From NCBI GenBank assembly GCA_039033415.1, contig JBCCCR010000023.1:1-64000 (forward strand): 64,000 nt of DNA, in the 5' to 3' direction. The notes under the pieces are model-generated. The model searched no databases and was not told the DNA's origin. It worked only from the letters and a program-made list of their open reading frames with translations. The number at the start of each line of letters is the position of its first letter. Position 1 is the first letter of the stretch. The translations under genes were made by a program, and so were the position numbers. Source of the DNA: Pseudomonadota bacterium. GTDB lineage: Bacteria; Pseudomonadota; Gammaproteobacteria; Xanthomonadales; SZUA-38. This document shows positions 1 to 48,744 of the stretch, in pieces.

Positions 1-3000
1 ACCCGTCCTGATCAAGATCAGACGCCACAAACTGGGCGATCGGGTTGGTGCCGCCGACAGCGCCGTTGATCGACCAGCGCAAGCTGCCGTCAGCGTTGCG
101 AATTTCGCTGCCAAACAGCACTTCATACTGACCATCACCCTCCAGATCAGCGATCCACGGCAGAGCTTCCACTACCGGGCTGGAAACAGCCGTGTTGAAC
201 TGCCAAAGGAGGTTGCCCGTACCGTCCAGCACGCTGGGCCCAACCACGATCTCAACAGCACCATCGCCGTCGAGATCAAACACTTCGATCGCGGTGCGGG
301 TTTCATCGAAGTTGCCGGGCAACACTGGCGTTACACTTTCCCAAAGCAGGTCGCCAAGATTGCTGTAGCCATACAGGTGACGCTCGCCGGTCGCGGCATC
401 GTTAGCCACGAGCACTTCCGGCACGTTGTCACCGTCAATGTCCGCAATGGCAGCACCCACATCGATGGTAGCAGCGCCGGAAACCCGCCACAGGAACGTG
501 CCTGTAGTGGCATCCAGGGCCGTCAGATCCGGACCTATGCCGATGATCGCCTGGTCGTCTGCCGTGTTAATTACCCCATTGCCGTCGGTATCGGTTAGAG
601 GCGCTACTTGAACCAGCTTTAGGTCTTCGGTACTGGTCCAGACTGACTTAACGTTCAGTGCCGAGCGATCGGTAAGGGGCGCGCGGCAGTAGGGGTTGAA
701 AACCTCAAGGGCTTCTCGCACCAGGTTGATCTCACCGCCGACCGTATTGTTGAGCCCGGACTGCAACAGCCACTGATTGTCGGGCCCAGAGTTGGTTACC
801 GTGGCACGGGGTGGTGCCTCAATAATCGCTAGCTGGTTGGTATCGACGTTGCCACCGATAGCCCGCACGGTGAAGGTGGGAGCAAAGGACTCGCTTTCTT
901 CCGGCGTGATCTCACTGAACACGGGAGCGTAGTTCACCAGAAGCTCGTAGTTTTGCACCCCCTGATTCCCAAAGGGATCGGTCGCCGACACCGAGATCGC
1001 GTGGAGCGTTGAGACGCGATCCTGCGGCACAGTCGGTGTCCAAGATAGCGTGCCACTTGCCCCATCGACGGTGACACCAGCCGGCCCCGCCACCAGACCG
1101 TAGGTAATCGCATCGCCGTTCGGGTCAAACGCATCAATCGTGTACGCGTGCGTCGCCTCATTCAACTCCAGTGGTGGCAGCGAGATGATGATCGGTGCCG
1201 CCTGGGTATCTGCCGAGAGCGCTTCCCAGGTGACGTTGGCTGATTCGATCGCGGGCCCGGAAATAAAGGTTGCGGTTTCTGTTCCGGCGTCGATGCCGAT
1301 ATAGCAGTAGTTGGCTGTACCCGTATCGTTCGTCGCAATCGACTGGCGAATGGTTCGTGCGCCGCTGACGCGAACGTCGATACGAGCGAACGGTACGGCA
1401 TAATCCAGTCCGTTTTTCGTGGTGATTGTGAAGCAGGCGTTTGCCCCTACAGTCTGAGTCTGGTTCAGCGGGGTTACTTCAAGACGATTCACCGGCGGCA
1501 GGTCACCCAAGATAGCGTTACCGTTGGTGCCGTAAGACTCAGCTGGCCCCCAGCCATAGATTGTGACTCCAAACTTTTCGGCCGCCGACATGGTGTGCGT
1601 GCCATAGGAAACTTCGATGGCTCCACCTAGGTATCCCGTATCCTCAATCGGCACCAACGTGCTGATGTCCGCAGGCTGGCCGTCAAGCACTAAAGAGGCT
1701 GCCGCCGTATCCGGAATAATCACGTTGACGTAGTGGGAATTCAGTCGATCGGTTCCCGCCGTTGTAAAGATGTACTCGTCGAGGTAGGCGGTGGTTGGCG
1801 GCAACAGCACCATGAACGGATCGGCGTCACTGTTGCCAGGTTCTGTAGCCCCTCGCTCCACAGCGTCAAACGCCTGACCGGTTGCGATCTGAGCCGCATG
1901 GATGGGCGCAGTGGAGGTAATCTCCGCCACCCCATCAATCACGCGATCAACAAACTCAAGGGCGTCCAGATACGCGCTTTCGACACCATTAACCCGAACG
2001 ACCGTATCATCGGTAGTGGCGACAAAGCGGAACAGGTCACCGTTAAAGCGAGTGGCGAAGGGTACGGACAAAAAGCGCGTTGCCAGCTGATCATCGCCCG
2101 GCACCTGCTCGATCATGTGGTCACAGGAGATGGTTTCTTCGTTCGGCACGTTCGCGCAGATAGCGCCAGCAAAGACCCCAATCGGCCGACTCGAACGAAG
2201 CGTGGTGCCGGTAACAAAGCGGGCTCGCGAGCCAGGAGTGTTGGTCCAGACGTCGCCCTGTTGAAGCGTGATGTTGAACGGCGCCTGATTGAAGGTTCCG
2301 TTACCAATCATCTGAGTGACACCGGGTCCAGGAGTCACGGTGACCAGTGTGTTGTCTTCGGTTGCAACTATGCCGAACGCGCCTAGCTGCAGCGAGTGAA
2401 ACGCCGGAATGGTGTAATCGCTCGCCAGTACGTTCGTAGGGTAAACCTGGGCCGCATCGGTCGAGGCCGTCCGCTCGTTGAAGGCCATCACGGTAATCGG
2501 CGCATCAGCGCTGACGTTCACGCCCACTGGATCAGGCGTTCCGTTGGTTCGGGTAACCACCGAAATTGGCAGCTCGATGCGCTCCAATCCACCCGCAGGA
2601 ATCGTGAAAGGAATATCGATCGCCAGACTGGCCACGGAAATCGTGCCGCTCGCACCACCCGGCGCAGCAATTGACAGCGCCGGAACGGCAGGCGCGCCTG
2701 GGTCGATGTCATTCCGCAAGAACGTCAGCCAAAAGTCGGTGCCAAGGTAGCTGCGGTTAATCGTGGAGCCAGGTACCGTCACGACGTAGTCCTGTTCAGC
2801 GAACGCGCCTTGCGGGTCGCTCGCTCGAACCCTCACGTCCACTGCACCGAGCGTGTCCGAAAGGGGTACCCACGAAATGAGACCCGTCGCTGAGTCGATG
2901 CTCATGCCCTGCGGGGCAATGACCAACGAGTACGTTAGGCTATCGCCGTCCGCGTCGCTCGCGTCCACGTCATAGGCGTAGGCTGCGCCTTCAGCCGCAT

Positions 3001-6000
3001 CAAGCACCGGCGTCGAGGTAATCTCAGGCGCCGCGTTGTTAACCTGGACGTCGAGGTTCACCACGGCGGCTGCCGAGTCCGCCTGCCCGTCACTGACCTG
3101 GAAGGTGAAAGAGTCTGGCCCCGAAAAGCCGCTGTTTCGGGTGTAGGTCAGATTAGGGGCCGTGCCGCTGAGCGTTCCGCCCGCGGGTGAGACGACCACC
3201 TGATAGGTGAGTGGATCACCATCGACGTCCGATCCGGTGAGTGTCAGCGCAAGGCTCGCCTCAGTAACTACCAAACTCTGCGGATCGGCGACCGGCGCAT
3301 CGTTTTGCGCCAAAATCTGGACGGTAACAGTTGCCGGATCAGATTCGGCGATGCCGTCACTCACCGTGAAGCGGAACGTATCCTCGCCGTTTTCATCTGC
3401 GTTGGGCAGATAGGTGAGGTTAGGCGGCGTACCACTAAGTGTGCCTCGGAGCGGGGCCTGAGTAATGGCAAGGGTTATCGCGTCGCCATCGGGGTCCGTT
3501 CCCGCCAGCGTCAGCGCTACGGCAACGTCTTCGTTGGTACTAATAGAGAGGTCGTCAGCCGTAGGCGGGTCGTTGATCGGTTCAACCACCAGAGTGATGG
3601 TTGCAAGGTTGGAGTCTGCGGCCCCATCGTTAGCCACAAAGGTGAGCGAATCGGTGCCGCTAAATCCGGCGCCCGGCGTGTAGTCATAGTCTGAACCCCC
3701 GCCGACCAGAGTGCCGTTCGCCGGTGCGTCAACGATCGCGAAGGTCAGAAGGTCACCATCAGCATCGCTGGCGGTTAACCGCACCATGGCAGTCGTATCT
3801 TCGGCCAGGTTAATCAAGTCGTCCTGCGCCAGCGGCAGGTCGTTGACTGCGGTAACCGTTAGCGTAACCGTGGCTCCCATTGAGCTGACGGTTCCGTCAA
3901 AGGCCTGGTAGGTAAACGAGTCAACCCCGTTGAAATCCGGGTCAGGCGTATAGGTGAGATTTGGGCTTGTACCCGTCAGTTCACCATGTTGCGGCTGCGA
4001 GGTGAGTGCGAACGTCAGCGCATCACCATCTTCATCGCTAGCCGACAAAACCACCGACACCGGCTCGTCCTCGTTCAGCGTCTGGGCAATGTCAACGGCA
4101 ACCGGCGGGTCGTTGACCGCATTAACAACAATCGATACCAGCGCCGGGACTGAATCACTGAGGCCGTCATTGGCCACAAAAGAAAAGCTGTCCGAGCCGC
4201 TGAAACCCGGATTGGGGGTGTAGCTGAAGTCTGGACCATTCCCTGAAACCACACCGTGGCTCGGCGGTGTTGACACGACATAATTGAGCGATGGTGACTC
4301 CACGTCGCTCGCGCTGACGCTCACCACAACACTTGAGTCTTCGTCCACCACCGCCGATGCGCCGATAGCTATCGGGATGTCGTTAACCGAAATGACCGAA
4401 AGACTGACAGTCTCTGCCGAAGAGTTTGCCGTGCCGTCGCTCACTAGGTAGCTGAAACTGTCGGTGCCGAAGAAGTTGGCAGCAGGCGTATAGACGAAAA
4501 TGGGACCGCTACCGGTCAACGTGCCGCTCCCCGGTTGGCTTAGGATTTCATAGCTCAGGGCGTCGCCATCTAGATCCGATGCGACTAGCGTAATGTTAGC
4601 TGTCGCGTCCTCATTCAGGCTCACCGCATCGCTATTGGCCATGGGTGGATCATTCACCGGGTTGACCGTCAAGGTCACGGTGGCGACATTCGAGGTATTG
4701 GAGCCGTCACTAGCAACGAAGGTAAGCGAGTCGGTGCCATTGAAGTTTTGCTCTGGAATGTAGGTGAGTGCCGGCGGCGTCCCGGCCAGAGCACCCCGAG
4801 TAGGGGCCGCCAGTACGGTGTAGGTCAGCGAGTCACCATCCGGATCGTTGGCGCTCAGCACAACCGGCACGTTCTGGTCTTCGTCCGTGACCACACTTTG
4901 ATCGACGGCCGTTGGCGCATTGGTGTTTGCGCATAGATCAACGAAACCCGCCTGAAAATTTTGGTTCACCTCAACTGTGCTAAGCGCCCGTTCGTAGACA
5001 GCCACCAAGTGGAGATCGCCGAGGAAGCCCCGTTCACGATCAAGCTCATTTGCCACAGCGAAGGCGTAGTGCGGGTCCCAGTTGCTGAAGTCTCCACCGA
5101 CTAGACCGGTCACGTTTTCGGAACCATCGACGTAGATGGTCGAATTGCCGGACGCATCCCGGGTGTACACCACGTGCGTGAGCGTTTCCATAGCGACATT
5201 CGTCGCGGTACCCGTAGAAGGGTTGGTCCCATTCAGACTCGTTTCGGTGGTGCGTAGCCGCGCTTCATACCCGCTAGCCTTCTGACCCAGCGTGACGTTA
5301 CGGCGGCTCGCCGACTCAGACAGCGTGGCGATGCGCGCCGGGCTGCTCGGTCCCTGAGTCAGATTATCCGGGCGCACCCAGGCCTCCAACGTTAGCGCGC
5401 CGGTCGATAGGATTCGATCCGTGAGCTTGCTGGCTGGCCCCGCGGAGCGAATCAGTGTTTCCTGGCGAACACCAAGACCGCCACAAGTCAGCCACTCCAC
5501 GTAGCCCGGATCTTCAATGGTGAGATCAAGGGGGAGACCCACGCCTGAAATATCAAGCACCGAGGTACCCTGCCCCTCCAGAAAATCATACTCAGCGATA
5601 AGCCCATCAGCGACTCGAAAATTCGCGCCTGGCGTCACCACGCGGATCGTGCGGTACGCGGTATTAGCCAGACCTTCGTTATCGGTGACCGTCAGGGTAA
5701 CGGTGTAGTTTCCGGCCATGTCGTAGAGATGACTAACCTGCGCCCCAGTTCCCTGTGTTCCGTCACCAAAATCCCAGGCGTAGCTGACCAGATACCCTCC
5801 AAAGTCGCTTGAAGCAGATCCATTGAAGCTCACCGATAACGGTGCATTGCCCACCACAGGAGTCGCCTCGATAACGGCACTGGGAGGCGCTGGGCATGGG
5901 CTGGAAAACCCAGCCAAAAAGTTCTGCTGGGCCTCCTGCGAACTTAGCGCCCGATCATAAATCGCGGCGATGTGGTACGTGCCAAGCCAGGGTCGATTAC

Positions 6001-8500
6001 CCGTCGCCTCATTGCCGAGGAGCAACGGGTACCCGTCAGACCAATTGCTGGTATCTCCAGTAACCGTCTCAGTCCCGCTGAGCACACCGTTGACGTAGAC
6101 CGAGGCCAGACCGCTCGAATCCCGCGTGTACAACACGTGGTTCGGCTGCCCTGCGACGAGGGTTCCGGGATTGGACGACAAACTGGGGGCGAGCCCGTTG
6201 GGGCCCGTTTCGCTGGTGCGGAATCGAACCGTGTATGCGTCTCCATCCTGACCCAGCGTGGCGTTGCGGTTCTGCGTGTCGGCAGACAGGCTGAGAATGC
6301 GCGCCGGTCCGTCCTGCTGGTTATCGGCTGGCGTGATCCATGCTTCCAGCGTGAGTTCGCCCCCGCTGCGGACGGCAGCTGCAACCCCGTCAGCCGGGAT
6401 CAGACTGCTGATTAGGGACGGCGACTGGAGCTCCAATCCCCCGCATGCACGCCACTGGGAATTCGCCGGGTTGTCGATCGCCAGGTCCAGTCGCACAGGG
6501 TCGTTCGACCGATCAAGAATCAATCCACCCTCGGTCTGATCGAAAGCGTAGTAGGCCAGGAGGTCGTCCGACACTCGCGGCTCCTGGTTGGGATCAAACA
6601 CCCTGATCCAAACCGTTTGTGAGTCACTCTCGCCACCAGCGTCCGTTGCCGTTAAGAGAACCGGGTACTCCCCCGGCTCCGTAAAAACGAAACTTGTCGC
6701 TATGCCTGTAGCCGTCGCGCTATCGGTGAGCTGCCAGCTGTAGCTCAGCGGGTCGCCGTCCGGATCTGTGCTTCCTGAGGCATCAAACTGTACCGATAGC
6801 GGGGCAACGCCATGATCAACATCAGCAGTTGCCTGAGCCTCCGGAGGTCGGTTGCAGGAGCCGATGTAACCGGCTTGATAATTGTGAGCGACCTCAAGTG
6901 CCGTTAGCGCCCGATCCTGGACCTCCACCAGGTACAAATCGCCGAGCCAAGGCCGTTGTTCACCAACTTCGTTGCCAATCAGAAACCCAAACGACTCCTC
7001 CCAGTTGCTTGTAGAGCTTGGGACGTTCTCCGTGCTAACCAGAACACCGTCGATATACAAACGCGCCTCTCCGCTAGCGTTTCGCGTGTAGGCGACGTGG
7101 GTCGGCCCCGCCGCTACCGCACCAGGTGGGCTCGACGTACTTGGGTTTAGCCCGTTGTCTCCGGTACCGGTAGTTCGCAAGCGAACGTTGTAGCTGTCCC
7201 CGTCCTGCGCCAAGGTGAAATTTCGTGCACTGGTTCCGCCCGATACACCAGCGATTCTCGCAGGCCCCGTTTGCATCACGTTGGCCGGCACAACCCAGCC
7301 CTCGACCGTTAATTCGTTGGAGGCTTTGACCGCTGCGATCAGGGCGCTTGCCGAGCTCCCATTTGAAATGACCGTTGGCGCGTTGAGGCGAAGACCGCCG
7401 CAGCTCAGCCACTGAGTTGCCGTCGCGTCCGAGATCGTCAGGTGGTTGGCCGCAAAAGATGTGTCGTTGACGGTTGCACCCTGCCCTTCCTCAAATCGAT
7501 AGGAGGCAACAGCGCGATCACTCACTCGCTGTGAAGGGTCAAACACCTCTACGTCAACGCTCGCAGAGGCGACGTTTCCCGTGTCGTCAGTAACTGTAAG
7601 CGTCGCTGAGTACTGCCCGGCGCTCGAATAGGCGTGGCCGACTGTGACTCCCTGTGCGCTGCTGCCGTCGCCAAAGTCCCAATCGAATGACACGAGCGAA
7701 CCGTCACAGTCCGTGGAGTCGGTGCCCGAAAAGTCGATGAGTTCACCCGTACTCAGGGCAGAACGCTGCAGGCTGATGATCGACTCGGGTTGTCCTGAGC
7801 AGGGATTGGCAAGGTCTTGTATCGCCGTCGTGGCCAACGCCCCGTCGTAGAACTTCAGCTCATCAATCAGCCCATGAAACGGGCGATCTCCGGCGCCGGT
7901 GGGTTGATTGCCAACGCCGACAGCAATGCTGGGATCTTGGGCAACAGAGCCCGTGAGCGGGAGGCTACCGACAATAACGCCGTCTTTGTAAACGCTCAGG
8001 ATTGACCCGTCGTACACCATTGCAGCGTGGGTCCAGGTATCGGCACTTAGCGGTTCACCGTCAGCAATCAGAGTCTGCGTCGTGCCGTCAGTTTTGACTC
8101 TAGCTCGAAGGTAGTAAAAGCCACCCTGCTCGACCGTACTGAGCATCCAGAGATGGTTGCTCTCCGAAGTACCCGTGGCCTTGGAAACCAACCTTGCTTC
8201 ATCGGTCGAAAAGCTCTCTGGTCGTATCCAAACGGCGATCGTGAACTGATTGGCGGGAACATCGATCGCGGGAAGATCAACCCGATCGAGGAGTCCGTCG
8301 AAGTTCAGGCTTGAACCGGCAATTCCGTTGGCCCGCCACTGACCTGTATCGACAGTTGCCGAGGACGCAGCGTTCAATGCGTCGGCGGTAGCCGAACCCG
8401 TGTTTTCGTTAAATTTCCAGTAAGAAAAAACCCCTTGTCCCAAAGACGCACACGGGACCGAGAGCGCCAGGACGGCACCCAGAATCGCTTGGACTGACAT
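1..8500 (-). CDS. Giant secreted LamG/PKD/cadherin-like/IgGFc-binding repeat protein (3' end outside window)
   Basis: An open frame runs from an ATG at 8500 to the left edge without a stop (2833 codons seen). Residues 1-21 form a signal peptide (hydrophobic core ILGAVLALSVPCASLG). In order I read: LamG-like lectin fold (about 24-225), PKD with WDFGDGS (238-320), LamG (329-547), PKD-like (551-634), LamG (644-867), PKD with WDFGDGT (872-951), LamG (964-1189), seven tandem cadherin-like Big_9 repeats of about 90 residues, each with a DxDGDxLTY core and an N-D-P-P linker (1192-1814), a He_PIG-type Ig domain (1821-1907), an IgGFc-binding-type domain opening with YLGTDFWLTF (1914-2331), another He_PIG domain (2431-2514) and FG-GAP-like DxDGDG repeats up to the edge. 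A purine-rich AGGGGG lies upstream of the start. It is probably a surface adhesin or glycan-binding protein; this is inferred from domains only, and the C-terminal anchor is not visible. Confidence 0.88.
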   Translation of the reverse strand, partial: MSVQAILGAVLALSVPCASLGQGVFSYWKFNENTGSATADALNAASSATVDTGQWRANGIAGSSLNFDGLLDRVDLPAIDVPANQFTIAVWIRPESFSTDEARLVSKATGTSESNHLWMLSTVEQGGFYYLRARVKTDGTTQTLIADGEPLSADTWTHAAMVYDGSILSVYKDGVIVGSLPLTGSVAQDPSIAVGVGNQPTGAGDRPFHGLIDELKFYDGALATTAIQDLANPCSGQPESIISLQRSALSTGELIDFSGTDSTDCDGSLVSFDWDFGDGSSAQGVTVGHAYSSAGQYSATLTVTDDTGNVASASVDVEVFDPSQRVSDRAVASYRFEEGQGATVNDTSFAANHLTISDATATQWLSCGGLRLNAPTVISNGSSASALIAAVKASNELTVEGWVVPANVMQTGPARIAGVSGGTSARNFTLAQDGDSYNVRLRTTGTGDNGLNPSTSSPPGAVAAGPTHVAYTRNASGEARLYIDGVLVSTENVPSSTSNWEESFGFLIGNEVGEQRPWLGDLYLVEVQDRALTALEVAHNYQAGYIGSCNRPPEAQATADVDHGVAPLSVQFDASGSTDPDGDPLSYSWQLTDSATATGIATSFVFTEPGEYPVLLTATDAGGESDSQTVWIRVFDPNQEPRVSDDLLAYYAFDQTEGGLILDRSNDPVRLDLAIDNPANSQWRACGGLELQSPSLISSLIPADGVAAAVRSGGELTLEAWITPADNQQDGPARILSLSADTQNRNATLGQDGDAYTVRFRTSETGPNGLAPSLSSNPGTLVAGQPNHVLYTRDSSGLASVYVNGVLSGTETVTGDTSNWSDGYPLLLGNEATGNRPWLGTYHIAAIYDRALSSQEAQQNFLAGFSSPCPAPPSAVIEATPVVGNAPLSVSFNGSASSDFGGYLVSYAWDFGDGTQGTGAQVSHLYDMAGNYTVTLTVTDNEGLANTAYRTIRVVTPGANFRVADGLIAEYDFLEGQGTSVLDISGVGLPLDLTIEDPGYVEWLTCGGLGVRQETLIRSAGPASKLTDRILSTGALTLEAWVRPDNLTQGPSSPARIATLSESASRRNVTLGQKASGYEARLRTTETSLNGTNPSTGTATNVAMETLTHVVYTRDASGNSTIYVDGSENVTGLVGGDFSNWDPHYAFAVANELDRERGFLGDLHLVAVYERALSTVEVNQNFQAGFVDLCANTNAPTAVDQSVVTDEDQNVPVVLSANDPDGDSLTYTVLAAPTRGALAGTPPALTYIPEQNFNGTDSLTFVASDGSNTSNVATVTLTVNPVNDPPMANSDAVSLNEDATANITLVASDLDGDALSYEILSQPGSGTLTGSGPIFVYTPAANFFGTDSFSYLVSDGTANSSAETVSLSVISVNDIPIAIGASAVVDEDSSVVVSVSASDVESPSLNYVVSTPPSHGVVSGNGPDFSYTPNPGFSGSDSFSFVANDGLSDSVPALVSIVVNAVNDPPVAVDIAQTLNEDEPVSVVLSASDEDGDALTFALTSQPQHGELTGTSPNLTYTPDPDFNGVDSFTYQAFDGTVSSMGATVTLTVTAVNDLPLAQDDLINLAEDTTAMVRLTASDADGDLLTFAIVDAPANGTLVGGGSDYDYTPGAGFSGTDSLTFVANDGAADSNLATITLVVEPINDPPTADDLSISTNEDVAVALTLAGTDPDGDAITLAITQAPLRGTLSGTPPNLTYLPNADENGEDTFRFTVSDGIAESDPATVTVQILAQNDAPVADPQSLVVTEASLALTLTGSDVDGDPLTYQVVVSPAGGTLSGTAPNLTYTRNSGFSGPDSFTFQVSDGQADSAAAVVNLDVQVNNAAPEITSTPVLDAAEGAAYAYDVDASDADGDSLTYSLVIAPQGMSIDSATGLISWVPLSDTLGAVDVRVRASDPQGAFAEQDYVVTVPGSTINRSYLGTDFWLTFLRNDIDPGAPAVPALSIAAPGGASGTISVASLAIDIPFTIPAGGLERIELPISVVTRTNGTPDPVGVNVSADAPITVMAFNERTASTDAAQVYPTNVLASDYTIPAFHSLQLGAFGIVATEDNTLVTVTPGPGVTQMIGNGTFNQAPFNITLQQGDVWTNTPGSRARFVTGTTLRSSRPIGVFAGAICANVPNEETISCDHMIEQVPGDDQLATRFLSVPFATRFNGDLFRFVATTDDTVVRVNGVESAYLDALEFVDRVIDGVAEITSTAPIHAAQIATGQAFDAVERGATEPGNSDADPFMVLLPPTTAYLDEYIFTTAGTDRLNSHYVNVIIPDTAAASLVLDGQPADISTLVPIEDTGYLGGAIEVSYGTHTMSAAEKFGVTIYGWGPAESYGTNGNAILGDLPPVNRLEVTPLNQTQTVGANACFTITTKNGLDYAVPFARIDVRVSGARTIRQSIATNDTGTANYCYIGIDAGTETATFISGPAIESANVTWEALSADTQAAPIIISLPPLELNEATHAYTIDAFDPNGDAITYGLVAGPAGVTVDGASGTLSWTPTVPQDRVSTLHAISVSATDPFGNQGVQNYELLVNYAPVFSEITPEESESFAPTFTVRAIGGNVDTNQLAIIEAPPRATVTNSGPDNQWLLQSGLNNTVGGEINLVREALEVFNPYCRAPLTDRSALNVKSVWTSTEDLKLVQVAPLTDTDGNGVINTADDQAIIGIGPDLTALDATTGTFLWRVSGAATIDVGAAIADIDGDNVPEVLVANDAATGERHLYGYSNLGDLLWESVTPVLPGNFDETRTAIEVFDLDGDGAVEIVVGPSVLDGTGNLLWQFNTAVSSPVVEALPWIADLEGDGQYEVLFGSEIRNADGSLRWSINGAVGGTNPIAQFVASDLDQDG

Positions 8501-9043
8501 ACAAAAGGCGCCCCCTGAGACGCCAAAAATTGGGCCAATCCGTGCGAGTTCCTGGGCCCACGGATCGGGCGCTAACCCCGATAGCGATCCTAAAAAGGAA
8601 TTTTTGCCATGTCAATTGATTCCCGAAAATGCTCAGAAGATCGATTATCGCTCGGGCAAGAGACGGCTAAACCTGTGCCGCATTGCCAAAGCGTCCCACA
8701 CGAACTCCGGTGAAGCAGAAGGGGGCTCCGTGACCATTGTTCCCTGACTGTTTTTCCCTTCTTACCGCTCTGTGTGAGAAGTTTGTCAGTTCTAGATACC
8801 GCCGATGGGCGTATACGTGGCAAAGCCCAGATAGCTTGGTAAACCCAGTCTTAGAAATCCGAAGTTCATTAGGGGGACCTGCCTAACGAGGCTACACAAC
8901 GCGAGTGAACATTTGGCCTAATATTTCGCAGGCTGGAGCAGGGGTTTCAAGGACTTTCGGCAAGTTTCGGTGAGTTATATTAGGCCGCCGAATACCTTTA
9001 ACCTGTTGTTTTATATGATTTTTTAGGGTTTTCGAGAACCGGA

Positions 9044-9088
9044 TTTGTAATCAGTAGGTCCCGGGTTCGACTCCTGGTGCCGGCACCA
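9044..9088 (+). pseudogene. 3' half of tRNA-Thr (UGU anticodon); probable attachment-site scar
   Basis: The 45 bases begin with the anticodon loop TTTGTAA (anticodon TGT) and continue through the 3' anticodon strand TCAGT, variable loop AGGTC, a T arm with stem CCGGG/CCTGG around loop TTCGACT, acceptor strand TGCCGGC, discriminator A and CCA. This follows the layout of bacterial tRNA-Thr(UGU). The 5' half is absent: upstream bases do not give a D arm, an acceptor 5' strand, or a full anticodon 5' strand (only 3 of 5 pairs form). A break at the anticodon loop with an intact 3' end is what tyrosine integrases leave when they use a tRNA gene as target. Because the original terminator follows the fragment, the inserted DNA would lie to the left. 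Confidence 0.82.
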
Positions 9089-9107
9089 TAAAATCAAAAG
9101 GTTATGG

Positions 9108-9124
9108 CGTCTTCGGGCGTTTTT
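9108..9124 (+). terminator. Rho-independent terminator of the ancestral tRNA-Thr
   Basis: A short CGTC/GGCG stem (one U-G pair) closes a TTCG tetraloop and is followed at once by five T residues. It lies 20 bases after the CCA end of the tRNA remnant, the normal place for a tRNA terminator. It suggests that this is the native 3' end of the locus and not a copy carried by an element. Confidence 0.6.
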
Positions 9125-9297
9125 CACGCCTAATATAACTCCCCGAAACCCTCTGAATTCCGCCACAACCTCGTCAATCGGGCTACTGAGCCAAAATAAG
9201 CGCGAGCCACTGATTTTATTCCGGCTTTGCTCGTCAGCATTCAACAGCGCTCGTTGGCCTTTCACGTCCCAGATTTTTGTGACCGGGACTGGAACTT

Positions 9298-9596
9298 TGG
9301 GGTCAGGTTCAAGTGCCAGGTTTGGCTGACAAGTCTGATCGGGAATCATCCTCACCGGTTTGGTCAATCGGACCTCAAGGGGCCTTGCCGACCCGAGAGA
9401 AGATACAAAGCCCTAACTTAGTCATTTTCGAACGACCACTGTGCCCAAACGGCCTCGGTTTTGCACAAAAACTGCACCCGCACACATTACTCAGCGTGGC
9501 AACAACCGGCAGGCGATTTTCGCTGGCGAGATTGACCTTGCCGCACAAGTTTCGAAAAGCCTGTGAATTTATGCCTGGCACTTGAACCTGACCCCA
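9298..9596. mobile_element. Internally deleted, non-autonomous derivative of the RAYT element
   Basis: The left end (9298-9319, core GGGGTCAGGTTCAAGTGCCA) and the right end (9575-9596) are perfect 22-base inverted repeats. They are the same ends as on the complete element at 20.4-21.2 kb. The first 250 or so bases parallel that copy at high identity, including the leader and the first codons of the transposase. The middle of the transposase gene is missing and the sequence passes directly to the right end. It sits 12 bases beyond the stop of the PepSY gene. It resembles a MITE arising by internal deletion and would need the transposase in trans. Confidence 0.8.
9441..9566 (+). pseudogene. Truncated RAYT transposase remnant inside the deleted element
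   Basis: Starting at the GTG that matches the intact copy's start, 41 codons remain open (VPKRPRFC then QRGNNRQAIFA) before a TGA. They align with the N-terminus of the RAYT at 20547-21191 (VPRRPRFC, QRGNNRQAIFA). The catalytic HVHLL motif and the tyrosine region are lost, so it cannot be active. It shares its upstream leader with the complete copy, so the two elements derive from one ancestor. Confidence 0.75.
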
Positions 9597-9608
9597 TAAA
9601 TGTCGTTT

Positions 9609-20383: not shown

Positions 20384-21256
20384 AAATTATGGGGTCAAAA
20401 TTATGGGGTCAGGTTCAAGTGCCAGCCTTGGCTGACAAGTCAGATCAGGAATCATCCTCACCGGTTTGGGCAATCGGACCTTATGGGGCCTTGCCAACCT
20501 GGGAGAAGATACAAAACCCTGGCTTTGTCATGTCGGAACGACCACTGTGCCCAGACGCCCTCGGTTTTGCCCAAAAAATGTACCCGTACATATCATTCAG
20601 CGCGGCAACAACCGACAGGCGATTTTCGCTGCCGAGAGTGACCTTGCCGCATACGCGCATTGGCTAAGAGAAAGGGCTGAAAAGTTTCAAGTAGAAATTC
20701 ACGGCTGGGTGTTCATGACCAATCATGTACATCTACTCCTAACGCCATCGACCGATTCGGGTATTTCAAAGCTGATCCAAAGCCTTGGCCTACGATACGC
20801 GCGGCACTTCAATTACACGTATGCCCGATCTGGCTCACTCTATGACGGGCGGTTCAAGTCCTGCCTGGTGGAAGATCACAACTACTTGCTGACATGCCTT
20901 CAGTACATAGAACTCAATCCACTACGCGCCGGCATGGTGACCGACCCCGGAAATTACCCCTGGTCAAGCTACCGCTCTCACGCGTTCGGCTTGCCGGCAA
21001 AAATGTGGAGTCCACACCCGCTGTATCGCTCCCTGGGCGAAAACCCAAAGCAACGCCAGCAAGCCTACCGCCAGCGCATCACCCAGCAACTCGATCAAGT
21101 CGTCATGACCAAAATTCGCCACTGCATCAACACCGGTATGACACTAGGATCAGATAAGTTCAAAGCCCAGATTCGCGCCCTGACCAACTAGCCTTTCTGC
21201 ACGACCTCATGCCTGGCACTTGAACCTGACCCCACAAATTTTGACCCCACAAATTT
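20384..21256. mobile_element. Complete RAYT element with inverted ends, inserted at the 3' end of hmuS
   Basis: The inner ends (20404-20425 and 21213-21234) are perfect 22-base inverted repeats containing GGGGTCAGGTTCAAGTGCCA. Outside them on each side lies a second, shorter copy of the tip: AAATTATGGGGTCA on the left, and its counterpart with GTGGGGTC on the right. The full ends are therefore about 42 bases long and look nested. The element carries one transposase gene and lies between the convergent receptor and hmuS genes. Its right end supplies the final codons of hmuS. REP-type ends next to a RAYT gene are established; whether this copy still moves is unknown. Confidence 0.82.
20547..21191 (+). 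CDS. REP-associated tyrosine transposase (RAYT, Y1/HUH family)
   Basis: A GTG at 20547 gives the canonical family N-terminus VPRRPRFCPKNVPVHIIQRG; an in-frame ATG further upstream only translates the element's leader. The 214-residue product has the HUH metal-binding motif (NHVHLLLTP), the RYARHFNYTYARSGSLYDGRFKS block and YIELNPLRAGMV with the catalytic-tyrosine region (LLTCLQYIELN). RAYTs nick single-stranded DNA at REP hairpins. The frame is intact and the motifs are present, so it may be active and could mobilise the deleted derivative at 9.3 kb. Its TAG stop interlocks with the hmuS stop as CTAG. Confidence 0.88.
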   Translation: MPRRPRFCPKNVPVHIIQRGNNRQAIFAAESDLAAYAHWLRERAEKFQVEIHGWVFMTNHVHLLLTPSTDSGISKLIQSLGLRYARHFNYTYARSGSLYDGRFKSCLVEDHNYLLTCLQYIELNPLRAGMVTDPGNYPWSSYRSHAFGLPAKMWSPHPLYRSLGENPKQRQQAYRQRITQQLDQVVMTKIRHCINTGMTLGSDKFKAQIRALTN

Positions 21257-23399: not shown

Positions 23400-24511
23400 C
23401 GAGCCCGCACTCGAGTAATCAGCCATAAGAAGAACGGTGCACCAATGGCGCTGGTCACAAGGCCCACCGGAATTTCAGCTGGGATGGCCAGCGTGCGCGC
23501 CAGCGTGTCGGCAACCACCATGAGGGTTGCGCCGAGCAGCGCGGCGCACGGGAGCACAAAGCGGTGCGATGCGCCGCCCATCAGGCGGATCAAGTGCGGC
23601 ACGATGAGGCCCACGAAGCTGATAATACCCGACAGCGCAACTCCTGCACCGACTACGGCAGCACTGCCCAGGATCGCCGTTTTCTTGAGCCTCTCGACGT
23701 TGACGCCAACAAACTCCGCCTCGGCTTCCCCGAGCTGAAACTGGTCGAGACGACGACTTTGCCGTAGCAGCAAAAAAGCAGCCGCCACAATGGGAATGAG
23801 TGCGGGGATGACGGTTGTCCAGGTAGCTCGGCCAAACGAGCCCAGGGTCCAAAACACCAGTGCTCGCAGCTGGCGTTCGTCGCTCATATATTGGAAGGCG
23901 CCAATGCCAACGGTGGACAGTGCATTGATCACGATACCAACCAGCAGCATCGTGACGACGCTGAAGTGGCCAAATCGCTTAGCAAACAGATACAGAAAAC
24001 CCGTGGCACAGCCGGCGCCGGTAATCGCTGCCAGCGGCATGAGAAACGGCGCTAGCCACGCGGGCGTCGCGATGCCCGCGCCCAGGACGATATAACAGAT
24101 GGCGCCGATCGCAGCACCACCCGACACGCCGATCAATCCCGGGTCCGCGAGCGGGTTGCGAAACAGCCCCTGCAGTACAGCACCGGCCAGGGCGAGTGCC
24201 GCCCCGACGAACGCTGCCAAAACAATGCGCGGACCGCGAATATCGAACAATACCGTTTTTTGCAGCTCGGCTTCGGCGGAGTCCCCGAGCAGGCCGTTTA
24301 AAGATATGGGGATGGCCCCGGAGACGATTGCGGTCAGCACCGACACACTGAGCCCCGCGACCAGACCAACAGTCACCAGCCGCTGCCGGTCGGCGGGGCT
24401 GAGCCTGCGGTTTGTCGGCGGCGATATGGTCTGGGCTGACCCGGTCGCTACCGGACGATCGAGACTCCCAGCGCCGCTGCTGGAAGGCAGGTCGCTTCCT
24501 TCATTGGGCAT
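23396..24511 (-). CDS. hmuU: Heme ABC transporter permease HmuU (FecCD family)
   Basis: 371 residues with about ten membrane helices typical of BtuC/FecCD permeases. Family blocks include FDIRGPRIVLAAFVGAALALAGAVLQGLFRNPLADPGLIGVSGGAA, ALVFWTLGSFGRATW and GIISFVGLIVPHLIRLMGG (given as landmarks, not continuous text). A cytoplasmic N-terminal extension of about 40 residues, rich in Ser and Pro, precedes the first helix and is longer than usual. The start overlaps the hmuT gene by 11 bases and the stop overlaps hmuV, so the transporter is translated as a coupled unit. Confidence 0.9.
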   Translation of the reverse strand: MPNEGSDLPSSSGAGSLDRPVATGSAQTISPPTNRRLSPADRQRLVTVGLVAGLSVSVLTAIVSGAIPISLNGLLGDSAEAELQKTVLFDIRGPRIVLAAFVGAALALAGAVLQGLFRNPLADPGLIGVSGGAAIGAICYIVLGAGIATPAWLAPFLMPLAAITGAGCATGFLYLFAKRFGHFSVVTMLLVGIVINALSTVGIGAFQYMSDERQLRALVFWTLGSFGRATWTTVIPALIPIVAAAFLLLRQSRRLDQFQLGEAEAEFVGVNVERLKKTAILGSAAVVGAGVALSGIISFVGLIVPHLIRLMGGASHRFVLPCAALLGATLMVVADTLARTLAIPAEIPVGLVTSAIGAPFFLWLITRVRAR

Positions 24512-29738: not shown

Positions 29739-30653
29739 ATGCCCGAATACCAGTCAATACTCGAAGCCCTTTACCTTGAAGCTGCCAAAGCCACTGACCG
29801 AGGCGTTGTCGCCTCCTATATTCCCGAGCTGGCGAAAATTGACGTCGACCAGTTTGGATTGCATCTGAGGACTTCGGACGGCTCAGAGTATGGCGTTGGC
29901 CAACACGATGTTCCCTTCTCCATACAGAGTATTTCGAAGGTACTGGCCCTAGCGAAGGCCCTGTCGATCGAGGGAGTCGATCCGTGGGACCGCGTGGATG
30001 TAGAACCCTCTGGAAATCCCTTCAATTACCTGTCTTTGCTCGAACAGGAAAACGGTATTCCGCGAAATCCGCTGATCAACGCCGGCGCCATCGTTATCTC
30101 CGACATTCTGGTATCCCTGCTGGAAAACCCCAAGGCAGAGTTTCTCGCGTTTGTTCGAGAACTGGCCGGTGACGATGAGATCGACTACAACATCGACGTG
30201 GCGCGATCAGAGAGAGCAACAGGTTTTCGCAACTTCGCGGCAGCCAACTTGCTGAAGTCCTTCGGCAACCTGGAGAACAATGTTGACGAGGTGCTGGATT
30301 TCTACTTCCATCAGTGCGCGATCGAAATGAGCTGCGCACAGTTGAGCAAGGCATTTCACCTGTTCAGCAATCAGGGAAGGTGCCTTTCCAACAAAGCCCA
30401 TATCACCGGCAGCCAGGCCAAACGGATCAATGCCCTAATGCTCACCTGCGGCTTTTATGATGAAGCCGGCGAATTCGCCTTTGAGGTTGGTCTGCCAGGA
30501 AAGAGCGGTGTCGGGGGCGGAATCATTACCCTGCTTCCCGATCAGTTTGTGCTGGCTGCGTGGTCGCCGGGCCTGAATTCAAAAGGCAACTCACTGCTCG
30601 GAATGGCGGCGCTGGAGCGCTTTACCTCCGCAACAAGGCTTTCCATTTTTTAG
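29739..30653 (+). CDS. glsA: Glutaminase A
   Basis: 304 residues covering the whole glutaminase family. The catalytic serine-lysine motif is FSIQSISKVLALAKAL, with GNPFNYLSLLEQENGIPRNPLINAGAI, RNFAAANLLKSFGN and GLPGKSGVGGGIITLLPDQ as further conserved blocks. It hydrolyses glutamine to glutamate and ammonia in the cytoplasm. It starts 9 bases after the NTR-like gene, yet their functions seem unrelated. Confidence 0.93.
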   Translation: MPEYQSILEALYLEAAKATDRGVVASYIPELAKIDVDQFGLHLRTSDGSEYGVGQHDVPFSIQSISKVLALAKALSIEGVDPWDRVDVEPSGNPFNYLSLLEQENGIPRNPLINAGAIVISDILVSLLENPKAEFLAFVRELAGDDEIDYNIDVARSERATGFRNFAAANLLKSFGNLENNVDEVLDFYFHQCAIEMSCAQLSKAFHLFSNQGRCLSNKAHITGSQAKRINALMLTCGFYDEAGEFAFEVGLPGKSGVGGGIITLLPDQFVLAAWSPGLNSKGNSLLGMAALERFTSATRLSIF

Positions 30654-32991: not shown

Positions 32992-33840
32992 TTAGAACAC
33001 CACCGTTCTGACGCCGTTCATCTGGACTCGGTATTCGACGTGGGCGTGTATCGCTCGCGCGAGCACGCTGGCCTCCACTTCCCTGCCCATCGTGACCATC
33101 TGCGCCGCGCTCGTCGCGTGGGAAACGCGGCGAACGTCCTGCTCGATGATGGGGCCTTCATCCAGATCCGTCGTGACGTAGTGGGCGGTGGCGCCAATGA
33201 TCTTGACCCCTCGGTCGTGGGCCTGGTGATACGGCTTCGCCCCTTTAAAACTCGGCAGAAACGAATGGTGAATATTGATACAGCGGCCTGCCAGCTGTTC
33301 GCAAAGCCAGGGCGAAAGAATTTGCATGTATCTCGCCAGCACGACCAGGTCGATTTCCCGCTCGTTGACCAGCTCTAGAATCTTCGTCTCCTGCCGACGC
33401 TTGTCCTTTTTGTCTGCAGGAAAATGGAAGTACGGGATGCCATACCATTCGACGATGCCTCGATGGTCATTGTGGTTAGAGACGACCGCCGGGATGTCTA
33501 CCCGCAGCGTTCCTCGTTTCCAACGGTGCAGAAGATCGAGGAGGCAATGATCGGGTTTGGACACCGCCAGGATAATGCGAGGGCGGTATGACAGATCGTG
33601 GAGCTCCCATTCCAGCGCCATGTCACTGGCCATTGCGTCCAGCTCAACCCTGAGCGAGGCCACTTCCTCATCGCTTGGAACAACAACGTGCAGTCGGATA
33701 AAGAACGTTTTTGACACATCATCTCCGAACGACACCGCGTCACGAATGTCGCCGCCGCGTTCACTCACCGCCCTGGAAGCCCGGGTCAGAATACCGGGCC
33801 GGTCCGGGCATCTCATCAGGAGAATTAGTTCAATCGACAT
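32992..33840 (-). CDS. purU: Formyltetrahydrofolate deformylase PurU
   Basis: From the ATG at 33840 the product is 282 residues (a TTG at 33864 is also in frame). An ACT domain (ELILLMRCPDRPGILTRASRAV) is followed by the formyltransferase-like domain with VSNHNDHRGIVEWYGIPYFHFP, LARYMQILSPWLCEQLAGRCINIHHSFLPSFKGAKPYHQA and GATAHYVTTDLDEGPIIEQD (landmarks). The conserved Asn, His and Asp of the catalytic site are present. It releases formate from 10-formyl-THF. It stands alone here. Confidence 0.93.
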   Translation of the reverse strand: MSIELILLMRCPDRPGILTRASRAVSERGGDIRDAVSFGDDVSKTFFIRLHVVVPSDEEVASLRVELDAMASDMALEWELHDLSYRPRIILAVSKPDHCLLDLLHRWKRGTLRVDIPAVVSNHNDHRGIVEWYGIPYFHFPADKKDKRRQETKILELVNEREIDLVVLARYMQILSPWLCEQLAGRCINIHHSFLPSFKGAKPYHQAHDRGVKIIGATAHYVTTDLDEGPIIEQDVRRVSHATSAAQMVTMGREVEASVLARAIHAHVEYRVQMNGVRTVVF

Positions 33841-34103
33841 GGTCGCCACGTAATGCGAAAACAAAGCAGAGTAGCCCCCGAACCAGGCCTGCGCTAGTCG
33901 AACATACGATCAACGGTTGCTGTCGGTTTGGATTGAAAGACCGCTATACCATCTAGCCTATCGAAATCTCGGCTGAGTCAGAATGACCGGTTTGCGGGAA
34001 TTGGCATGGTCAAAACCCGTTCTTTTTTGGAAGCCGCGCTAGGGAGCCTCTTCGAAAACCGTGACTGCTATGATTCCGACGTACTGAAGGGAGAAAACAG
34101 CCC

Positions 34104-43456: not shown

Positions 43457-44719
43457 GTGAAGGCTGATTGGAACATGGATCGCCCGCGTCAGCGGTCAAT
43501 CGCCACCGTCAGCAAGCCTGCCGGCTGGATCGCCATGACGCTGCTTGGTGGACTGACGCTGGGGCTGTTTGTCTGGGCCGGCATCAACCTGTTCCTGGTC
43601 AAGGAAGCAGTAGACCGAGACGAACTCTGGACGGATACCGTGACGCGGGGAACACTCACCTGGGAAGTCGCGGCAGCGGGCTCGCTTCATCCGGCCAACA
43701 CGCGCGTTGTATCTACGCTGATCGCAGGCCAGGTCGTGGAGCGGCACCTGGAGGTAGGAGACGCCCTGAAGCCAGGAACACGGATTGTCACGCTGGAAAA
43801 TTTGAGCGAAAAACGTCGGCAGCTCGAAATCGGGCAAGACCTGCAGATGGCCCAGGCGGAGTTGTCCGAGCTCATGGGCGAGCTGGAAACCCGAGCGCTC
43901 GAACGCGAAAAGGTTCGCCACGAGCTGGCCTTTGAGCTGCAGGACGCGCGACGTCGCGCGGAAGCCAGCCGGTCCCTGGGGGTCGGCGTACTTCCGGAAA
44001 TCGAGATCCTCCGGCTGGAGGAACGGGTTGAGGCTCTGGAGACTCTGCTCAGCGTCGAAGAAAAGCGAGCGCACGCCGCGGCCGCATCCGCCGGCGCTCA
44101 GGTCCAGCAGCAGCGGACGCGTGTCGTACAGCTGGAGCGCCTCAAAGATTTCCAGGACCAGGTAGTCGACTCCCTGCAAATCAGAAGCACAGTGACCGGG
44201 GTGCTGAAGACCCTGCCCGTCCAGCCCGGACAATGGCTCGCCGAGGGCATCGCGCTGGCGGAGGTAGTCGAGCCGGGCGAGCTGATTGCGCGACTGCAGG
44301 TGCCCGAAAGCGCCGCTGCGGCTTTACGAACCGGCCTCGCCGCCCGGCTGAATGCCCGCGGTATCGAGCTTGAGGGAGTTGTCAGCCGAATCGATCCTGC
44401 GGTGAGTGCAGGCACCATTACAGTAGATATTGATCTTGAGTCAGCGCCCGAAACGCTTCGTAACGACCTGAGCATTCAGGGCTACATCGAACTGGATCGC
44501 CTGGAAAACGTACTGTCTGTTACCCGCCCGGTCGGCGTCGATCCACAAACGTCGGCACAGCTATATCGGCTCAATGAAAAAGTGGTTGAGCCGGTGGTCG
44601 TAGGCCTTGGACGCGTTGCGGGTGATCGTATCGAAGTGAAAAGTGGGCTATCGGCAGGCGATCAAATCGTGTTGTCTCAAGCTGGTAACAGCCAGCGCAA
44701 TCTTTCTGCAGCCAGGTAA
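43457..44719 (+). CDS. HlyD-family periplasmic adaptor
   Basis: 420 residues from GTG 43457, four bases after the permease stop. One membrane helix (about 28-50, WIAMTLLGGLTLGLFVWAGI), biotinyl-lipoyl halves (VVERHLEVGDALKPGTRIV and VLKTLPVQPGQWLAEGIALAEV) around a long coiled-coil hairpin (110-245). It is a MacA-type adaptor linking the MacB-like permease to an outer-membrane channel, not seen here. Confidence 0.9.
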   Translation: MKADWNMDRPRQRSIATVSKPAGWIAMTLLGGLTLGLFVWAGINLFLVKEAVDRDELWTDTVTRGTLTWEVAAAGSLHPANTRVVSTLIAGQVVERHLEVGDALKPGTRIVTLENLSEKRRQLEIGQDLQMAQAELSELMGELETRALEREKVRHELAFELQDARRRAEASRSLGVGVLPEIEILRLEERVEALETLLSVEEKRAHAAAASAGAQVQQQRTRVVQLERLKDFQDQVVDSLQIRSTVTGVLKTLPVQPGQWLAEGIALAEVVEPGELIARLQVPESAAAALRTGLAARLNARGIELEGVVSRIDPAVSAGTITVDIDLESAPETLRNDLSIQGYIELDRLENVLSVTRPVGVDPQTSAQLYRLNEKVVEPVVVGLGRVAGDRIEVKSGLSAGDQIVLSQAGNSQRNLSAAR

Positions 44720-44731
44720 AACGGACTCGCT

Positions 44732-45469
44732 ATGAATACCAATCGACCAATGATTTCACTTGACGATGCGGTGCGCGTTTTCTCCGCGGAAACCGTCGAA
44801 ACCAGCGCCCTCGACGGCGTTTCGTTGCGGATCGACCGCGGCGAATTCGTCGCCATCGCCGGGCCTTCAGGCGGCGGCAAAACCACCCTGCTTTCGGTCC
44901 TGGGCCTGCTAGACACCCTGAATTCCGGCGGCTACCAGCTTGACGGCGAGGACACGATCGGCATGAGCGCTGGCGAGCGAGCCGTGATTAGGAATCGCAA
45001 GATTGGATTTATCTTTCAGTCGTTCAACCTCCTCGGCGATCTAACAGTCTTCGAGAACGTCGAGCTTCCCTTGTCGTACCGAGGCATGAGCGAAAAAATT
45101 CGGCGGCTGCGGGTCCAGGAAGCGATCGAACGTGTCGGGATGGCCCATCGGTCCGGTCACTACCCGTCGCAGCTATCGGGGGGGCAGCAGCAGCGGGTTG
45201 CGGTGGCACGCGCTATCGCAGGCAATCCCGCCGTCCTCCTGGCGGACGAACCGACGGGTAACCTGGATATGGACAGCGGCCAAGAAGTGCTCGACCTGCT
45301 AACCGAGCTTCACCGCACCGGGTCCACCATCGTTATCGTCACCCATGATCCCGCGTGCGCGAGACGCGCCGGCCGGATTGAATATCTTCTGGATGGCCGC
45401 CTTATCAAATCCGCGGACGTAACGCTTGAGCTTCAGCAACGAGGTTTCGTCTCGGTTGCGGCGGGTTGA
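44732..45469 (+). CDS. MacB/LolD-type ABC transporter ATP-binding protein
   Basis: 245 residues with Walker [15 protein letters not shown]-loop [20 protein letters not shown], signature [17 protein letters not shown], Walker [14 protein letters not shown] and H-loop [16 protein letters not shown]. It supplies ATP hydrolysis to the ADOP-type permease encoded two genes upstream. Starts 12 bases after the adaptor stop. Confidence 0.93.
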
Positions 45470-45569
45470 TCGTTTGGCGATCAAACGGGTTATTCCTCAG
45501 CAGCGGGTCACCGCTGCGCAAGCTGATGGTACGAAACAGCGTGACTGCCACCGCCCCCGGCACAGTTGA

Positions 45570-46178
45570 TTGAAGTCGGTGAGGGGAGTCACAGGGTACG
45601 CCGCTGCGTTGGATCGTTTTGTGGCGGCCACGGAACGGGTCAGTTTCGCCGAACTTCATGCGCCCTACCTACCGCTGCTGCCGAAAGCCCCGGGAAGAAT
45701 TTTGGATGTGGGCGCCGGCATTGGTCGCGACGCATCTGTGCTGGCTGAAAAAGGCCATGTGGTGACGGCGGTTGAGCCCCTGCTCCAGTTCGTTGACGTG
45801 GCGGAAAGAACCTACGGCGAGGCGAAGATCCGATGGGTTGTAGACTCGCTGCCAAAGCTGGGACGACTCGATAAGCCTGACGAAGACTATGATTTCATCC
45901 TGGTGTCGGCAGTGTGGCACCATCTGACTGCCGACGAACGAATAAGCGCCATGTCCAGACTCTCCGAGCTGACGTCCCCGGGCGGCATTTTGGCGCTGTC
46001 GCTGCGGAATGGTCCTGCAGGTGTGGGAGCGCACGTTATTCCCACCGACAGCGGGGAAACCATTGAGCTGGCCGGGAGCCTCGGCTTCGAAACCGTTGTT
46101 TCATCTCTAAACCAGCCGAGTCTGATCGCAGAGAAAGCCGAGGTGACGTGGTCGAAACTGGCTTTCCGGCGACTCTGA
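45570..46178 (+). CDS. Class I SAM-dependent methyltransferase
   Basis: 202 residues from a TTG; a GTG three codons later is possible. Motif I ILDVGAGIGRDASVLAEKGH, an acidic motif II (VTAVEPLLQFVDVAERTYG), YDFILVSAVWHHLTADER and LTSPGGILALSLRNGP place it in Rossmann-fold methyltransferases. The substrate cannot be read. It stands alone after the efflux operon. Confidence 0.8.
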   Translation: MKSVRGVTGYAAALDRFVAATERVSFAELHAPYLPLLPKAPGRILDVGAGIGRDASVLAEKGHVVTAVEPLLQFVDVAERTYGEAKIRWVVDSLPKLGRLDKPDEDYDFILVSAVWHHLTADERISAMSRLSELTSPGGILALSLRNGPAGVGAHVIPTDSGETIELAGSLGFETVVSSLNQPSLIAEKAEVTWSKLAFRRL

Positions 46179-46298
46179 CAAAACGAGCCGAGAAGAGATA
46201 CGTAAGACAGAGTCCGTGCGGTAAGCGAACGCGGGTCACTCAGACTCACTTTACGTTTCCCCAAGTAACGACAAGGCTCTCTCCGCGATTTACATTCC

Positions 46299-48050: not shown

Positions 48051-48108
48051 CAGCGGTTGCCTCCACGACGTTGCTGCGAAAGCTTATGACAACTCCCGTG
48101 GGTTCAGC

Positions 48109-48744
48109 TTAACTCGGGTTAAGCGCTGTCCGACGCCTTCTCTTAAACCGACTGAAACCCTGTGGCGTGATGCCAAGAAACGCCGCGATATCGCGCTGGC
48201 GAACGCGATCAAGAACCGCTTCGTGGTACCGCTCCAAGAATTGATAGCGGATTTCCGTATCGACGCGGCTCTTTGCGGACAACACCTCCTTATCAAAGCA
48301 AAGGGTCTCCATCGCTTTGAGCCGAAGGTAACGTCCAAGCTCACCACCGCCGATAAATTCATTGCGAAACAGCGTGTCGGGGATGGCAACCGCCGCCAGC
48401 TCGGTTAATGCGATCAGGTCATCGGCGGCGTATTGCTGTGTCCACGCGCTGGTCAGGTTCGCGCAGACCTGGCCCTTTTCAAAAAATCGGGCAATCGAAA
48501 TCTGCCCGTCAAGATGGGTTTGTCGCGATGCCGCTATCCCCTGGGTGATAAAAAACCATCGCTCGGCGATTTCAGTCTGCCGGTCGATCACTTCGTCAGG
48601 CGCAAATTGAACGACGTCGAATTGTGGCGCCAGACCCACCCAGTCGGCATCGCTCAGCGCTATGCCCAAGCGGGCCATGTCACTGAGGAGTGCAGCCAAT
48701 GGCTTCTTTATCGCACTCCGATTTTGGGGTTCTTCCAGGGCCAT
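48109..48744 (-). CDS. Crp/Fnr-family regulator, short HTH form
   Basis: 211 residues. The cyclic-nucleotide-binding fold spans about 30-150 (FAPDEVIDRQTEIAERWFFITQGIAAS, then GQISIARFFEKGQVC), followed by the dimerisation helix and a compact HTH ending IAAFLGITPQGFSRFKRRR. This short C-terminal end is common in a Crp subgroup with LGITP-x-x-FSR. Divergent from the AraC gene; effector unknown. Confidence 0.82.
   Translation of the reverse strand: MALEEPQNRSAIKKPLAALLSDMARLGIALSDADWVGLAPQFDVVQFAPDEVIDRQTEIAERWFFITQGIAASRQTHLDGQISIARFFEKGQVCANLTSAWTQQYAADDLIALTELAAVAIPDTLFRNEFIGGGELGRYLRLKAMETLCFDKEVLSAKSRVDTEIRYQFLERYHEAVLDRVRQRDIAAFLGITPQGFSRFKRRRRTALNPS

Follow-up and report, generated by a model that had tools for sequence, protein, structure and literature searches.

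Islands integrated at tRNA genes have been collected by Islander, and Table 1 of its report lists 3760 islands with a 3' fragment against 159 with a 5' fragment; three or more islands in tandem were counted just 4 times (PMC4383910). Candidates without an integrase are rejected by Islander, according to the available part of that report (PMC4383910). The nearest precedent for the locus described here is the group of Dehalococcoides ssrA islands, for which the sections available give 15 islands without an integration module and sixteen with one (PMC3146451). Cis-mobilizable elements (CIMEs), as described in the accessible part of the source, have no integration or transfer genes, keep their att sites and stack in tandem by accretion (PMC5704250). 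By analogy, CIMEs and accretion would give a mechanism for an array at tRNA-Thr(UGU) (PMC5704250).

We analysed a stretch of 64,000 bases (the window), which corresponds to bases 1-64000 of contig C23 in a draft genome of 62 contigs and 6.4 Mb (G000). It was compared with a metagenome bin of the same genus (G001, a Lysobacterales MAG, draft of ~130 contigs), in which the array lies on contig C67 (JANQOZ010000102.1, 90,333 bases). Judged from the sequence comparison, window 8912-9289 is very probably an attachment junction in an integrase-free cassette array at tRNA-Thr(UGU). It would form the distal end of an island that carries a giant gene, and the native tRNA gene would lie to the left, between contigs C21 and C23. 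The features of the window were as follows.

2-8500, minus strand: gene for a giant surface-type protein with multiple domains, carried by the left island and running off the contig (domain matches; G001 homologue)
8912-9043, plus strand: P arm, on the island side of the attachment site, recurring upstream of four G001 fragments
8972-8986, minus strand: type I arm site GGCCTAATATAACTC, inverted copy, putative role
9044-9088, plus strand: core of the attachment site, formed by the tRNA-Thr(UGU) 3' half from the anticodon loop through CCA (45/45 to the intact G001 gene; phage matches)
9044-9050, plus strand: anticodon loop TTTGTAA, putative strand-exchange (overlap) region; the point where the fragments and the intact tRNA diverge; the same 7 bases close the 5' half on C21
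9089-9289, plus strand: P' arm, which in G001 also stands to the right of 3/4 fragments and of the intact tRNA
9127-9141, plus strand: second copy of the type I arm site with 1 mismatch; this copy and 8972-8986 both belong to the 22-nt inverted repeat that flanks the core
9291-9601, no strand assigned: shortened derivative of an IS200-like Y1-transposase element, located where the P' arm ends, with a 23-nt terminal inverted repeat

The tRNA half and its arms

As originally predicted, 9044-9088 is a 3' half of tRNA-Thr(UGU) that runs from the anticodon loop to CCA. It was identical to the intact gene of G001 at 45/45 nt, and its sequence starts TTTGTAATCAG and ends in CCA. No other site with at least 30/45 matches was found on either strand of the whole 115,084-base contig, and no whole tRNA gene was called in the window by ARAGORN. 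The Rfam search of the window gave no match at the gathering threshold and two sub-threshold matches nearby; on these results, the idea that the cut marks a group I intron or a member of some other RNA family was rejected. The TTTGTAA at 9044-9050 would be the region of strand exchange.

The same core was found in phages. Sirocco and F_HA1961sp matched window 9045-9089 at 45/45 positions. In the case of the Pseudomonas temperate phages LPPA56, UFJF_PfPro and Sirocco, the tRNA-Thr(UGU) 3' core was 93-100% identical and the match started at the same base. This core is presumably attP and is not so annotated. A gene annotated as an integrase was next to the core in LPPA56 and UFJF_PfPro, and none was seen in the 2.5 kb of Sirocco that were examined. 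Since two phages carry the core beside an integrase gene, the reading of the anticodon-loop cut as an attachment junction, which had been proposed from the window alone, was borne out. The LPPA56 integrase gave no match in G000, G001 or G003 in a search run without a positive control.

The P arm of the window was ~132 nt long, and the P' arm was ~200 nt long. The 5' half had been predicted to be replaced by unrelated DNA, and this was confirmed, since the DNA left of 9044 is the ~132-base arm and not tRNA, and the arm recurs at four other 3' halves in G001. The five P arms showed 63-87% pairwise identity. A P-arm model (R1) matched 2/398 genomes of the order, both of this genus, under strict filters that may miss distant forms. 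The window P arm was 87% identical to the G001 fragment f52253 and 68-71% identical to the other three fragments, and f52253 was its nearest relative in 99.9% of 2000 bootstraps. The window P' arm was 85% identical to that of f26891, 83% to the flank of the intact tRNA, and 77% to those of f52253 and f56426; the right flank of f32836 was unlike the P' arm. Its nearest relative was f26891 in 78% of the bootstraps, the intact-tRNA flank in 21%, and f52253 in only 0.5%. Because the nearest relatives of the two arms differed, the two sides of the core have separate histories, as predicted by recombination within the core.

The 22-nt inverted repeat flanking the core was matched at 21/22 positions, and the best of 60 shuffles gave 18. 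In the scan of C23, C67, C21 and 22 other loci, GGCCTAATATAACTC at up to 2 mismatches was confined to these junctions, except for one 2-mismatch site at C23 36155. The site was not found at f56426 at 2 mismatches. The inverted copies of GGCCTAATATAACTC around the core look like integrase arm-type sites, by analogy with the general layout of a lambda-type attP.

The right side had been predicted to be native, with the terminator of the tRNA intact, and here the original prediction was not supported. A consensus scan of 8900-9300 found no terminator, and the fold after CCA varied from -2.5 to -10.5 kcal/mol over six copies. The scan and the differing folds ruled out a terminator as proof of a native right flank. 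In addition, 9089-9289 is not specifically native, because the same P' arm follows the intact tRNA and 3/4 fragments in G001. Another island may lie on the right of the window junction.

The Y1-transposase derivative at 9291-9601 is not part of the island system. Its positions 9298-9545 were 88% identical to 20404-20651, which adjoins the Y1_Tnp gene at 20466-21191. The corresponding IS200-like element spans 20398-21241, and related copies were present on C67. Further to the right, window 29739-30653 (glutaminase) and 32992-33864 encode proteins that were 92-94% identical to proteins in the same order on C67. In the 20 kb before 29739, no match to C67 comparable to these glutaminase-region genes was found apart from the Y1 element. 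These 20 kb may include another island, the far end of which is unrecognisable.

Cassettes in G001 and the 5' half on contig C21

Matches to the 3' half were found in 31/41 genomes (the own genome and 40 relatives), and intact tRNA-Thr(UGU) genes were present in G001, G002 and G003. G001 contained six matches, five of them on C67 and all five in the same orientation. The first C67 match is the intact tRNA-Thr(UGU) at 23797-23872. Downstream of it, 3' halves were located at ~26.9, 32.8, 52.3 and 56.4 kb (f26891, f32836, f52253 and f56426). A weak arm match at C67 66879-66951 (E 1e-3 and 2e-4) was read as a decayed arm ending a fifth cassette. The lengths of the cassettes were 3.0, 5.9, 19.4, 4.1 and ~10.5 kb (n=5). 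P' and P arms were found at the ends of cassettes 1, 2 and 4 (3/5); the left arm of cassette 3 is different, and the right arm of cassette 5 is the decayed one. The four halves carried 1, 0, 0 and 4 mutations from proximal to distal, with most in the most distal one. This pattern was roughly as expected if old junctions were pushed outward and decayed. As a related genome against which the original prediction could be read, G001 shows an intact tRNA-Thr(UGU), then 3' halves, and the same giant-gene cassette.

The giant gene of the window encodes Ig-like, cadherin-like, LamG, PKD and IgGFc-binding domains. Its homologue in G001 is located in the cassette between fragments 32836 and 52253, and window 3-4886 showed 92.0% DNA identity to G001 44287-49170 over 4,894 nt. 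The predicted island on the left, with the giant gene inside it, was thus supported. The G001 cassette ends at f52253, which is also the nearest relative of the window P arm. Other DNA shared by the two genomes was mostly 86-88% identical, and the outliers were a 1.1-kb piece (80%), a 212-base tRNA-bearing piece (98%) and the glutaminase gene (85%). Because this other shared DNA spans 80% to 98%, an identity of 92% in the giant gene no more than hints that the cassette was shared later. In the protein comparison, the main alignment left out the N-terminal 1,186 residues on the window side and began at residue 831 of the G001 protein. At window 4886, the DNA changes from 92% identity to no similarity (4886-8500 on the window side, C67 49170-51716 as the counterpart). 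The P arm beyond the start of the gene is alike again in the window and G001 despite the differing N-terminal 1,186 residues.

Other cargo was seen in the array of G001. Proteins of cassettes 1 and 2 (L061:5067-5639 and L061:11654-12115) matched the immunity families Imm11 and Rap1a, which suggests that orphan immunity genes travel in these cassettes. Cassettes 4 and 5 (C67 53147-55412 and 57163-59428) contain related BNR/Vps10-type proteins in opposite orientation, with 66% DNA identity.

An intact tRNA-Thr(UGU) was not found in the own assembly, where a 71-nt query with the 3' half matched the window site only and, weakly, a tRNA-Arg. Rfam gave 42 tRNA matches in this genome (150/168 candidates scored), and 41 of them were called by ARAGORN. 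Thr(GGT) and Thr(CGT) were present, and Thr(TGT) was absent from the 41 called tRNAs. Gaps in the assembly are expected, because tRNA-Ala(TGC) and tRNA-Ile(GAT) were also absent from the called tRNAs.

The 5' half was found on contig C21 of the own genome. Over 18.4 kb, the reverse complement of C21 matched the DNA flanking the G001 array on the left at 88% identity. At ~6 bases past the end of this synteny lies A1, in which an upstream region is followed by a decayed 5' half and then an arm. A2 lies ~33 kb beyond A1 and consists of a related upstream region, an exact 38-nt 5' half (38/38) and an arm; A1 and A2 were 72% identical over 269 columns. A promoter-like TGGACA-16-TATCAT in A2, with 10/12 consensus positions, ends 9 bases before the 5' half and is a candidate promoter by consensus match. 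No promoter-like match was found at the decayed A1. A third site, A3 (L107:10722-10868), has an arm 95% identical to that of A2, joined to unrelated DNA, and would be either a secondary site or the product of a later rearrangement. The left array is less regular than the right because A3 is without a 5' half. When reversed, the A2 arm aligned to the window P arm with a score of 11.5, and the best of 300 shuffles was 7.0, so the A2 arm was read as a mirrored P arm. The C21 5' half and the window 3' half, rejoined over TTTGTAA, gave the exact 76-nt gene of G001, and ARAGORN identified it as tRNA-Thr(tgt).

Integrases and possible explanations

An intact tRNA-Thr and an integrase had been predicted further to the left. 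The first part held in G001, where the intact tRNA lies left of the same cassette. The second part was not supported, as no integrase was found on C23, C67 or C21. The leftward search for an integrase and a second 45-base copy gave none on C23, which starts at window base 1, inside the giant gene; the G001 array has further copies, and no integrase was found there. PF00589 had 13 matches in G000, 9 in G001 and 4 in G003, and gave no match on C23, C21, C67 or G003 C75. This profile alone was rejected as a test of absence, since it gave no match for 3/4 integrases at comparable sites and a sub-cut-off match for the fourth. A search with 19 integrase queries against ORFs of at least 60 aa on C21, C67 and C23 gave no match at E 0.01. 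In this search, 7/7 control loci were matched, two phage integrase queries had no control locus of their own, and C23 was covered for the window's own island only from window base 1 rightward. A Pfam scan of 20 proteins of the G001 cassette region (smaller ORFs left out) gave one Y1 transposase and no transfer or integrase domain.

For the left arms, a type II arm site, TGCCAATTTTGTGTCAA, was defined on the sequence of A2. Exact copies were also found at A3 and at the apparent far end of the G001 tRNA-Arg(TCT) island (C12), and copies with 2 mismatches were found in A1 and in the tRNA-Thr(CGT) island of G000. The near end of the tRNA-Arg(TCT) island, on contig C52, which is presumably linked to C12, carries an integrase. 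The integrases at tRNA-Arg(TCT), tRNA-Thr(CGT), tRNA-Met and tRNA-Lys were close relatives of one another. The anticodon-loop integrase family at tRNA-Arg(TCT) and tRNA-Thr(CGT) is the best helper candidate for the type II arms on the left. For the type I arms of the window, no matching integrase was found. The close-knit tyrosine integrase family beside these four tRNAs in the genus comprises L112, L113, L079, L110 and L122. On G000 C4, an odd tRNA-like sequence (L119:2359-2470) scored 35 bits in Rfam and was uncalled by ARAGORN, and 3 kb on, an apparent tRNA-Arg 3' half, seen by eye (L119:5460-5500), closely follows another integrase gene.

The P arm, tRNA core and P' arm would be what remains after site-specific integration into the tRNA-Thr(UGU) anticodon loop. 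Every new cassette would bring a fresh tRNA half, and the old half would be displaced outward. The right-hand cassettes would bring the 3' half, and the left-hand islands, as on C21, would bring the upstream region and the 5' half in mirrored form. The order would be C21, the intact tRNA and C23, with the intact gene in an unassembled gap, and integration would be carried out by an integrase acting in trans and encoded elsewhere. Integrase-free islands have probably accreted on both sides of one tRNA gene, served in trans. A wider proposal, which we regard as equally open to being right or wrong, is that an essential tRNA is permanently rebuilt from mobile DNA. Here, the right side would receive 3' halves and the left side 5' halves together with a promoter, at mirrored att sites around the near-symmetrical anticodon stem, with the integrases encoded elsewhere.

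An ordinary single island would have the fragment as its attR and native chromosome from 9089, and the unassembled DNA on the left would hold the intact tRNA and an integrase. However, the homologous cassette of G001 sits in a five-cassette array on a 90-kb contig that is without a detected integrase throughout, and the DNA flanking the window junction on the right is the P' arm, which is a repeat. On C21, the 5' half also shows further insertions on the left. We therefore consider a single island improbable, even though other families of the order have tRNA-Thr(UGU) islands with integrase-like genes beside the fragment (G036, G023) and C23 starts inside the giant gene, so that the DNA further left is unseen.

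It is very unlikely that the genome has no intact tRNA-Thr(UGU) and that the halves on C21 and C23 are products of an inversion or a split gene, possibly joined as RNA. The exact halves occur once each, apart, and no intact copy was found. The trailer and the leader are also able to pair at -19.4 kcal/mol, a value as low as that of 1.8% of 1000 shuffles, but such pairing is expected anyway because the arms are mirrored relatives. Intact genes are present in G001, G002 and G003, and the own assembly is also without tRNA-Ala(TGC) and tRNA-Ile(GAT), as expected from gaps. Splicing of such tRNAs is not known in bacteria. As little credence was given to a tRNA pseudogene formed by ordinary duplication or rearrangement with no integrase involved. 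It agrees with the finding of no integrase-type recombinase nearby, but the cut lies in the anticodon loop at five junctions and is mirrored in the 5' half, and the conserved arms contain inverted repeats and assort independently about the core.

Comparison with known systems

The window segment 9044-9088 and the four G001 fragments each reach the end of the tRNA gene, in the same orientation and on the proper side, as is found in tDNA islands. The intact tRNA at the other end was seen in G001, and the own genome showed a separate 5' half only. A tyrosine integrase inside the island was not found on C23 (from window base 1), C21 or C67. In the available part of the Islander report, tDNA islands resemble this locus in the tRNA target, the anticodon-centred crossover, the displaced fragment of the same orientation and the position of the island between the intact gene and the fragment (PMC4383910). 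In contrast to the islands described there, five cassettes stand in tandem in G001, where no integrase was found, and 5' fragments at the same tRNA also occur in G000 (PMC4383910). Arrays such as the tRNA-Thr(UGU) locus would be discarded by integrase-requiring island finders, e.g. Islander.

An autonomous element with the arms of the window was rejected, as the arm pattern was unmatched in viral contigs. An arm-bearing plasmid or phage was also rejected: 90 plasmid and 85 phage records matched, none covered 80% of the query, and the best 20 of 90 and the best 20 of 85 matched the tRNA part only. In named genomes, all four matches to the arm pattern were on one contig, that of G001, and the pattern was written from G001 and the window, whose own records may be left out. 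Unlike the window junction, the Pseudomonas phages were without matching arms.

A two-sided, integrase-free tRNA array was not described in the titles and abstract openings of the literature searched, which was covered in part. If the proposed arrangement is true, tRNA genes can gather cargo cassettes on both sides by way of trans-acting integrases, in a manner similar to that of integrons. The junctions in this case are tRNA halves. The cargo (giant surface-type proteins, immunity-family proteins and an esterase) is of a variable kind that may matter to the lifestyle of these bacteria.

Unlike CIMEs as the accessible text presents them, the tRNA-Thr(UGU) array showed no helper element, and its mobility is suggested by sequence (PMC5704250). 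Like CIMEs, cassettes 1, 2 and 4 of G001 have no integration genes found and carry putative attachment sites at both ends (PMC5704250). In the case of the Dehalococcoides ssrA islands, the sections available place the crossover in the T loop of tmRNA and describe repeats downstream only, which differs from the array at tRNA-Thr(UGU) (PMC3146451). The two systems share a tandem arrangement of islands downstream of a single RNA gene, with a repeat of the 3' end of that gene closing each island (PMC3146451).
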